From NCBI RefSeq assembly GCF_000270285.1, contig NC_015738.1:2108001-2172000 (forward strand): a stretch of DNA of 64,000 nt, given 5' to 3'. A program made the position numbers and the translations under genes. Position 1 is the stretch's first letter. Every line of letters begins with the position of its first letter. Under the pieces are notes generated by a model that saw only the letters and a program-made list of their open reading frames with translations, was not told the DNA's origin and made no database searches. Of the stretch, positions 1 to 44,407 are shown in pieces. Source of the stretch: Eggerthella sp. YY7918 (GTDB taxonomy: Bacteria; Actinomycetota; Coriobacteriia; Coriobacteriales; Eggerthellaceae).

Positions 1-315
1 ATCGGCATTCCGCACCAGCTCCGCCACATCAAACCCCAGCACATCAGAAGCACACTCAAAGACGTCCGCCACCTCGGCCACGTCCATAAGGTCCGCCCCC
101 ATCCCCGCCTTCTGAGCCCCCTGCCCCGAGCAAAGAAACACCGGCGCACTGTCAGGGATAGAGAAAGAAACCGACCCCCCACAGGGCTGGGCGGTGGCGT
201 CCACCAAGCGAGTTCCGCACGAGCCGAAACGCCCAGTGGGCGTTTCGTGCGAGCAGGACTGTCTGAGCGACTGGACGCTGCCGCCCAGTCCACCCGCAGG
301 TTGAATTTCACCCAT
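1..315 (-). CDS. fabD: Malonyl-CoA:ACP transacylase, N-terminal part (runs off window)
   Basis: This is the start of FabD, which moves malonyl groups from CoA to acyl carrier protein in fatty-acid synthesis. The visible 105 codons contain the FabD signature FLCSGQGAQKAGM at about residues 62-74; the family normally begins almost directly with this motif. Here it is preceded by about 55 extra residues, of which residues 14-39 come from a palindromic repeat also found in hisH. The start is the ATG at 313-315, with a strong AGGAGG seven bases upstream; no start with a comparable ribosome site lies closer to the conserved domain. It follows fabK after a 12-base gap on the same strand. The catalytic GHSLGE region lies beyond the window. 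Confidence 0.88.
   Translation of the reverse strand, partial: MGEIQPAGGLGGSVQSLRQSCSHETPTGRFGSCGTRLVDATAQPCGGSVSFSIPDSAPVFLCSGQGAQKAGMGADLMDVAEVADVFECASDVLGFDVAELVRNAD
199..276 (-). repeat. In-frame palindromic coding repeat, copy A (in fabD)
   Basis: A 78-bp segment with conserved ends (199-217 and 248-276) that recur in hisH. The core is a near-perfect inverted repeat, GAAACGCCCA at 226-235 and TGGGCGTTTC at 237-246. Read in the fabD frame it encodes VQSLRQSCSH, then a variable part, then GTRLVD. The hisH copy encodes VQSLKQSCSH and GTRLVD in the same frame and orientation. This resembles the Rickettsia palindromic elements in concept; family membership elsewhere is not shown here. Confidence 0.8.
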
Positions 316-43576: not shown

Positions 43577-44407
43577 TCAGGCTCCTTTCGCGATGTTCAC
43601 AAAGTTGCGCAGCAAACGCGCACCGGCATCCGAGCTTTTTTCCGGATGAAACTGCACGCCGAACGCCACCTCGCCGTAGTGCACCGCGCAAGGAAACGTC
43701 ACGCTGTGGGTGGTTTTCGCGATGGCGAAGGGGCCGTCGGGTGCGATGAAGCTGTGCGTGAAGTAGAAGTAGGTGCCGGAAGGGATGCCTTCAAAGAGAG
43801 GGCTTGCAAAAGAGCCCTCCGGCGAGTCGAATGGATCGGCGGTGTCCACCAAGCGAGTTCCGGATGGCGAACAGTCCTGCGAACTGTTCGCACGCTGCTT
43901 TTCGCGCCCGAACGGGCGCGTGGGCTGTCTGTGCGAGCAGGACTGTTTGAGCGACTGGACATTGCCGGTCTGTTCGACGGAACAGGTTGGTTCTACCGTA
44001 TTCCAACCTACGTGCGGCACCTTGTAAGGAGTGCCGCTTTGATCGACCGGCGGCATTTTTGCGACGACCCCGGGGAGAATGCTGAGGCCGGGGGCATTAT
44101 GGGTGGACGTTTCATCGTCTTCTTCGGGGGCACCCTCGACCCCTTCCTCGAACATGAGATGCATACCGAGGCAAATGCCGAGAAACGGCACACCCGCTGC
44201 AATGCGGCGGCGGATGACATCGGTTTGTCCCAGATCGCGCATCGTGGTTGCCGCGTCGGCAAACGCTCCCACACCCGGCAGCACAATGGCATCAGCGCGC
44301 GCGATGGCACCGGCGTCGTCAGTGACAAACGCTTCAGCACCCGCCGCGATCAAACCGCGCTCAACGCTTTTCAGGTTGCCCTTATGATAGTCGACAACGG
44401 CAATCAT
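43577..44407 (-). CDS. hisH: Imidazole glycerol phosphate synthase, glutaminase subunit, with repeat insert
   Basis: HisH supplies ammonia to HisF. The Cys of the triad is in FLGICLGMHLMF (near residue 80) and the His/Glu are in FGVQFHPEKSS. HisH is usually about 200 residues; this one has 276. About 60 extra residues lie between PHVGWNTVEP (near 143) and SPLFEGIPSGTYFYFTHSF (near 207), which are adjacent in normal HisH. Most of the insert is the palindromic coding element shared with fabD, in the same frame. An intact triad and open frame suggest the enzyme still works, with the insert in a surface loop. Its start overlaps the hisB stop by four bases. Confidence 0.93.
   Translation of the reverse strand: MIAVVDYHKGNLKSVERGLIAAGAEAFVTDDAGAIARADAIVLPGVGAFADAATTMRDLGQTDVIRRRIAAGVPFLGICLGMHLMFEEGVEGAPEEDDETSTHNAPGLSILPGVVAKMPPVDQSGTPYKVPHVGWNTVEPTCSVEQTGNVQSLKQSCSHRQPTRPFGREKQRANSSQDCSPSGTRLVDTADPFDSPEGSFASPLFEGIPSGTYFYFTHSFIAPDGPFAIAKTTHSVTFPCAVHYGEVAFGVQFHPEKSSDAGARLLRNFVNIAKGA
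43844..43960 (-). repeat. In-frame palindromic coding repeat, copy B (in hisH)
   Basis: A 117-bp copy of the fabD element. The ends (43844-43862 and 43932-43960) match fabD 199-217 and 248-276 almost perfectly; the core differs and holds two hairpins, GCGAACAG/CTGTTCGC (43868-43891) and CGCGCCCG/CGGGCGCG (43903-43920). The encoded ends are VQSLKQSCSH and GTRLVD. Confidence 0.82.

Follow-up and report, generated by a model that had tools for sequence, protein, structure and literature searches.

Palindromic repeats within and between genes

The palindromic elements of Rickettsia (RPEs) and Wolbachia are palindromes of 100-150 bp, which lie in frame in unrelated genes and are found at the same site in orthologs; in the excerpts available, the question of insertion hot spots is left open (PMC3767692, PMC10969869). 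RAYT-mobilised palindromes of the REP/BIME type are dispersed and located behind genes, and the accessible part of their description reports stem variants with paired changes and G.T pairs (PMC3733652). MITEs are portrayed, in the section consulted, as small, hairpin-forming and dispersed sequences, which are sometimes fused in frame to genes (PMC10969869). The available portions of two studies (PMC8794818, PMC8604942) describe template switching as a process by which stems can arise, arms can become homogenised and spacers can be inverted, and the mitochondria of Nematomorpha are described, again in an excerpt, as keeping long perfect palindromes inside coding genes (PMC6649704).

The palindrome described here was found in a fabD-type gene of Eggerthella sp. 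YY7918. Compared by description, it shares with RPEs the size of 100-150 bp, the presence in many copies and the in-frame location in unrelated protein genes; it differs from them in being mostly intergenic, in using several frames and both strands, and in having a split core, locus-specific paired arms and inverted orthologs. The original prediction had likened the element to RPEs, which is appropriate with respect to its dispersal, its variable hairpin, its in-frame location in genes and its presence or absence among relatives. However, RPEs are defined by a conserved peptide that is read in one frame, and the palindrome is read in several frames on both strands; it is therefore not classed as an RPE. 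Dispersal, post-gene position, paired stem changes and G.T pairs are shared with the REP/RAYT system as far as the excerpt describes it, whereas the length of about 80-150 bp, compared to 20-40 bp for the REP unit, and the arms that differ by locus are distinct. Furthermore, no match to the Y1 transposase family PF01797 was obtained at E<=0.01 in the YY7918 genome, while matches were present in 6 of 14 control genomes. Like MITEs in the part of the account at hand, the palindromes are small dispersed hairpins that are at times in frame in genes, but their end sequences are not constant and no target duplication was found at the compared sites. The available parts of the template-switch studies deal with RNA genes and yeast inverted repeats, whereas one dispersed family would supply many cases here. 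Long palindromes in coding genes are shared with Nematomorpha; there, each of the two arms codes for conserved parts of proteins, and the accessible text describes no dispersed repeat family (PMC6649704). In the literature covered, which was partial, no earlier description of the palindrome family was found.

The copies in fabD and hisH

The window, which comprises 64,000 nucleotides of the YY7918 contig NC_015738.1 (positions 2,108,001 to 2,172,000), contains two copies of the palindrome (Table 1). The copy in the fabD-type gene corresponds to NC_015738.1 2108183-2108292 (E 2.6e-20 with the covariance model, whose alignment also contains this copy), and the predicted fold of 2108170-2108310 has an energy of -77.3 kcal/mol on the plus strand and of -72.4 on the minus strand. 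A 78-bp segment (199-276), which encodes the peptide VQSLRQSCSHETPTGRFGSCGTRLVD on the minus strand, had initially been taken for the element. This segment is real; however, it omits most of the paired arms and is thus only the middle part of the unit, a hairpin that measures about 110 bp. The start codon ATG and the ribosome-binding site AGGAGGG, both read by eye, are located upstream of the element, which places the palindrome inside the fabD coding sequence, where it is in frame at about residues 8-45. The open frame has 365 residues, and the Pfam domain Acyl_transf_1 matches it at residues 63-341, after the element. The N-terminal extension of FabD had been estimated at about 55 residues, and 57 residues are indeed found ahead of PVFLCSGQGAQ.

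As predicted, the ends of the 78-bp segment recur in hisH, the left one at 43940-43960 with 1 mismatch in 21 and the right one at about 43837-43862 (genome 2151837-2151862). The conservation of the encoded ends was likewise borne out by the HisH sequence, which contains VQSLKQSCSH...GTRLVD. Reading frame and orientation are the same in the two window copies, as had been stated, but not family-wide, since several frames and both strands are used and three hisH orthologs are inverted.

Table 1. Features of the two palindrome copies and their host genes (window coordinates; A1, alignment of 21 copies)
Feature	Position	Strand	Remarks
Whole palindromic element in fabD-type gene	183..292	+ (G.T-pairing hairpin strand; gene on -)	Covariance-model match
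Outer arm 1	183..203	+	Locus-specific, pairs with 272-292; A1 columns 1-21
Conserved core half 1 (AGCGAGTTCCGCACGAGCC)	207..225	+	A1 columns 25-36 and 38 invariant, n=21 copies
Inner hairpin GAAACGCCC-AGT-GGGCGTTTC	226..246	+	Variable, with paired changes; A1 columns 44-64
Conserved core half 2 (GAGCAGGACTGTCTGAGC)	251..268	+	12 of A1 columns 71-86 invariant, n=21 copies
Outer arm 2	272..292	+	A1 columns 90-110
fabD-type gene, 5' part	1..315	-	Start ATG 315-313; ribosome-binding site 329-323
Second copy, longer interior, core length 100	43828..43976	+	Covariance model 2151828-2151976, E 5.4e-11
hisH (276 aa), second copy in frame	43577..44407	-	Pfam GATase 3.8e-16; named by reading, adjoins hisA-like frame

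Copy number and distribution

BLAST searches of the YY7918 genome (one contig, 3.12 Mb) returned 42 places at E<=10, several of which are two halves of a single copy, and 25 places at E<0.001. With the covariance model, 18 matches were obtained at E<=0.01 (150 of 1254 candidates scored), confirming that many further copies exist; they span 77-153 bp, and 10 of the 18 span 108-111 bp. In one cluster at 2335230-2335640 (L008), several copies are nested or arranged in tandem.

Among the relatives, the palindrome was found in 25 of 60 genomes, and the exact core pattern in 47 of 246 genomes of the class, YY7918 being included in both counts; the reversed-pattern control gave 0 among the rows listed. 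The number of 47 is a minimum, as the majority of Adlercreutzia cores exceed the length that the exact pattern allows: A. hattorii yielded 0 matches with this pattern, yet 47 with the covariance model. Coriobacteriia genomes range from none to dozens of copies. Beyond the class, in a search that yielded at least 120 stretches, 80 of which were listed, the matches with the same core include at least 10 loci with a larger shared unit and 41-51% GC in Lachnospiraceae MAGs and at least one Omnitrophota MAG, the MAG labels being checked by GC only. The larger unit common to the Lachnospiraceae copies L103, L106, L114, L116, L121 and L133 has outer arms like GAAGCGGG/CCCGCTTC, and some copies of this group sit two close together. 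Carriage by phages or plasmids was considered and rejected, as the exact pattern had 0 matches in viral contigs, a single matching record in the plasmid collection (Collinsella, 899,693 bp) and no match in the E. coli genomes searched.

Core, arms and strand asymmetry

The core of the palindrome is conserved and split; it surrounds a variable inner hairpin and is itself flanked by outer arms, which mostly differ by locus yet are near-perfectly paired. The split core, 5' GCGAGTTCCGCA...GGACTGTYYGAGC, forms the internal loop of a long hairpin. In the aligned copies, the core halves are largely invariant, the bases of the inner hairpin change in pairs and the outer arms share little sequence across loci. 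The alignment A1 and the covariance model R1 were built on 21 copies, all of core length 61. For this, 113 copies with a core length of 61 or 63 and an arm score of 11 or more were thinned to 42 (23 and 19, respectively); A1 takes 21 of the 23 core-61 copies; L046 and L050, which have their arms in a different register, and the 19 core-63 copies are not part of it. In these 21 copies, which were chosen for paired arms, 96.5% of the cells are paired, both sides are changed in 27 of 30 pairs, and the covariation is 0.833 compared to 0.240 after shuffling. The inner hairpin contains 9 pairs, 7 of which are changed on both sides, with 100% of the cells paired. Across all 213 distinct copies, an arm score of at least 10 is reached by 174 copies, but by only 20 of 1065 controls with permuted flanks, and in the zone beyond 11 nt, a score of 8 is reached by 165 copies and 45 of the 1065 permutations. 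In YY7918, the arms of copies are unrelated even when their cores resemble each other; by eye, Parvibacter copies often share arms among themselves, and the same is seen within Adlercreutzia.

Mismatches were counted in copies with an arm score of 10 or more, 132 in one set and 174 of the 213 in the other. On the VQSL-encoding strand, the 132 copies contain 233 arm mismatches (168 A.C, 22 G.T and 43 others), and the excess of A.C/C.A over G.T/T.G sits largely at positions 8-10. At a distance of 11 nt or more from the core, the 174 copies contain 55 A.C, 17 G.T and 71 other mismatches. Here, A.C exceeds G.T in all five context classes; however, transversion mismatches (71) outnumber A.C (55), which was counted against the overall reading of the family. 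As the A.C mismatches lie mostly on one strand, the other strand pairs with G.T, and it is the hairpin of this latter strand that is favoured and that seems to matter.

A search of Rfam 15 with 8 copy-bearing loci at E<=5 gave 6 matches, none of which reached the gathering score; three of them (MIR3454 twice, mir-328) fall on the long-armed copy L125. The copies L088, L105, L125 and L151 have very long paired arms (37-47 by arm score), which is unusual among bacterial palindromes. In L013, L015 and L011, the interior carries a longer multi-hairpin insert with the motif GCGCCCG-CGGGCGC, and in Adlercreutzia copies such as L063, L090 and L136, a second small palindrome like CTCAACCATGGTTGAG follows, as if both belonged to a larger unit.

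Location relative to genes

Crude gene calling assigned 141 of the 213 copies, which include orthologs, to regions between genes, 54 to coding sequences and 18 to positions near a locus end; the value of 54 is an underestimate because the caller placed the in-gene copies of fabD and L004 between genes. Between co-directional genes (n=106), the favoured strand is antisense in 81 copies and sense in 25, with a median distance from the stop codon to the core, arm included, of 48 bp and 124 bp, respectively. The largest group of classified copies hence sits close behind stop codons, and the 81:25 orientation bias suggests a constraint beyond pure selfishness. A further 21 copies lie between convergent and 14 between divergent genes, and those in coding sequences are sense in 31 and antisense in 23 cases. 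A function as intrinsic terminators was rejected, since a T run does not follow the stem in the copies read by eye and, where the flanking genes are co-directional, the strand that is favoured is mainly the antisense one. No replication-strand bias was seen when the YY7918 model matches were looked at by eye with the origin assumed at coordinate 1.

In YY7918, in-frame copies are present in seven open reading frames, namely fabD, hisH, gatA, purL, ABC-F, a permease, whose GTG start is a prediction by eye, and the L004 ORF. The same frame is used in fabD, hisH, ABC-F and the permease, and other frames or strands in gatA, purL and the L004 ORF. With respect to the Pfam matches, the copy falls outside the matched region in FabD, GatA, PurL, the ABC protein and the permease and within it in HisH and the L004 ORF, and some of the in-protein copies are terminal extensions, linkers or interior stretches. 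At least five of six frames are open in 36% of 190 copies (from the 213) compared to 21% in shuffled sequences, which is only a modest excess.

Orthologous sites and turnover

FabD was matched in 37 of the 60 family genomes, a count that includes YY7918. Of the 30 loci read, three carry the element, those of YY7918, Enteroscipio rubneri (G001) and G065, each time with different paired arms, and the presence/absence comparison that had been proposed thus shows that the insert is not a conserved FabD domain. An ordinary N-terminal domain of FabD or a chance repeat is refuted by its absence from 27 of the 30 loci, by the many copies and by the permuted-flank control. GatA was matched in 54 of the 60 genomes; 30 loci were fetched, 24 of them were located and 6 were not, and the element is present in 5 of the 24. 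The gatA locus first suggested an inverted target duplication on insertion; this was rejected, as G031 is without both arms and the 'empty' sites of G008 and G077 look like remnants, which may be left by deletion. In hisH, the element is found in YY7918, G001, G004 and G065, and the orientation in YY7918 is inverted compared to the other three. The purL linker contains the element in YY7918, none in G001 and, by eye, a different repeat in G004 and G065, while the ispD-ispF junction has a short core in YY7918, a long core in G001, no element in G004 and a different repeat in G065 (ispD, ispF, plsY and gpsA are putative names given by reading). The L004 ORF is without the element in G004 and G065 and carries another stretch in G001, and the ABC protein contains the element in YY7918 and G065, but not in G001 and G004. 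At orthologous sites, the element can therefore be present, absent or inverted, or have another core type or other paired arms.

In Adlercreutzia, one in-gene copy occupies the same place in 6 of the 9 genomes searched, and its arms differ between genomes while still pairing. A comparison of 8 loci chosen from a larger table shows further sites at which some species have no element, an inverted one or one with other arms. A. hattorii has a core version of its own: a core length of 86-87 was found in 6 of 11 A. hattorii copies examined and in 0 of 62 copies from 8 congeners, with one shared tip by a strict test in only 3 of the 6 long cores. For 9 A. mucosicola copies, A. muris has a counterpart among the loci examined in 6 cases and none there in 3. 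The empty sites seen in A. mucosicola and A. muris look like later losses. The arms of the 6 pairs are identical in one, slightly changed in one and different in 4, with flank identities of 83-99.7%, so that some pairs may be non-orthologous. At the DUF512 locus, where the two species share 95.9% identity over 4.4 kb, the replaced arms border on a stretch in which flank identity drops; allelic recombination can therefore explain the arm change, imported alleles need to be considered, and the locus is a weaker argument for rewriting in place. The 13 other matches in G085 all fall short of the full A. mucosicola DUF512 element; the widest covers 5-108 of 112 at 79%.

Apparent mobility and possible origin of the paired arms

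With their observed dispersal, structure, strand asymmetry and turnover, the palindromes are regarded, with moderate confidence, as a family of non-autonomous, apparently mobile elements of about 80-150 bp, whose arms and core are rewritten after insertion. A trans-acting factor would recognise the folded core strand and spread the palindrome, and the rewriting of arms and core would involve a mix of template switching, gene conversion or allele replacement, and selection for pairing. Template switching would homogenise the arms and invert the spacer; it fits the core inversions, but the changes in both arms are not predicted by simple arm homogenisation and need an added step such as mutation, conversion or replacement. 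The palindrome is read as being tolerated in proteins rather than specialised for coding DNA: the copies in genes are tolerated peptide inserts, which need not be of any use to FabD or HisH, and the palindrome works like RPEs in invading genes. No match to the reverse transcriptase family PF00078 was found at E<=0.01 in the YY7918 genome, and among the orthologous loci compared in the relatives, none was a clean case of a recent insertion that had duplicated its target. An autonomous partner flanked by core halves was also searched for; one distant pair (L268, 1275 bp) was detected, and no convincing carrier was present among the loci examined. A more radical version, which is rather unlikely, is that of a self-templating palindrome, of which only the split core of about 35 nt would be inherited; the arms would be regenerated at each site by template switching, with the folded single strand, which would have a kink-turn-like internal loop with tandem G.A pairs, as the unit recognised. 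An arm would be copied from the other arm or from local DNA, and cores would flip between arms and be overwritten by other copies. If this were true, protein sequence at such sites would be rewritten in blocks.

The differing arms, orientations and cores could also be separate arrivals through repeated insertion at a few tolerant hot spots, with the arms travelling with the unit. This is conceivable, though doubtful: arms are shared within the genomes of Parvibacter and Adlercreutzia by eye, nested copies exist, and in other genera a different repeat is found in the purL linker (G004, G065) and at the ispD-ispF junction (G065); however, the insert at the same place in 6 of 9 Adlercreutzia genomes, the unrelated arms of YY7918 copies with similar cores and the lack of a complete DUF512 element among the 13 other G085 matches argue against it. 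It seems improbable, to much the same degree as self-templating, that the palindromes are REP/BIME-like host elements, for which the post-stop hairpins would have a role at mRNA 3' ends or in DNA topology, compensatory changes would be selected stepwise, and in-gene copies would be by-products. The single orientation of 81 of the 106 co-directional copies close to the stop codon, the covariation at orthologous sites, and the arms of A. mucosicola and A. muris, which match exactly at one locus and almost exactly at a second one, are all expected for such an element, but the strand with the G.T pairs runs antisense to the genes in those 81 copies, sites present in one species are lost or inverted in others, copy number differs widely among relatives, and the in-gene copies are found on both strands. 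The original prediction of an element adapted to insert in coding sequence, i.e., an RPE-like repeat specialised for one frame, is largely refuted and very improbable. The seven YY7918 open reading frames, four of which share a frame, are in agreement with it; however, most classified copies are intergenic, the frame or strand is another one in gatA, purL and the L004 ORF, the hisH orthologs are inverted, and frame openness is near the shuffled expectation.

The family offers many natural cases of long palindromes that persist, invert and are rewritten in place, some of them in essential-type genes. As the host genera include cultured type strains, two questions are directly testable: whether compensatory stem changes originate from selection or from template switching, and how repeats turn into protein segments outside Rickettsia.

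The different repeat that fills the purL linker (G004 L314, G065 L323) and the ispD-ispF junction (G065 L309) is itself a second dispersed repeat, GTCATCCTGAGCGGAGC...GGAGTCGAAGGATCCCGTGCGG, which is also present in YY7918 near 799226 (L016) and 2345416 (L017).
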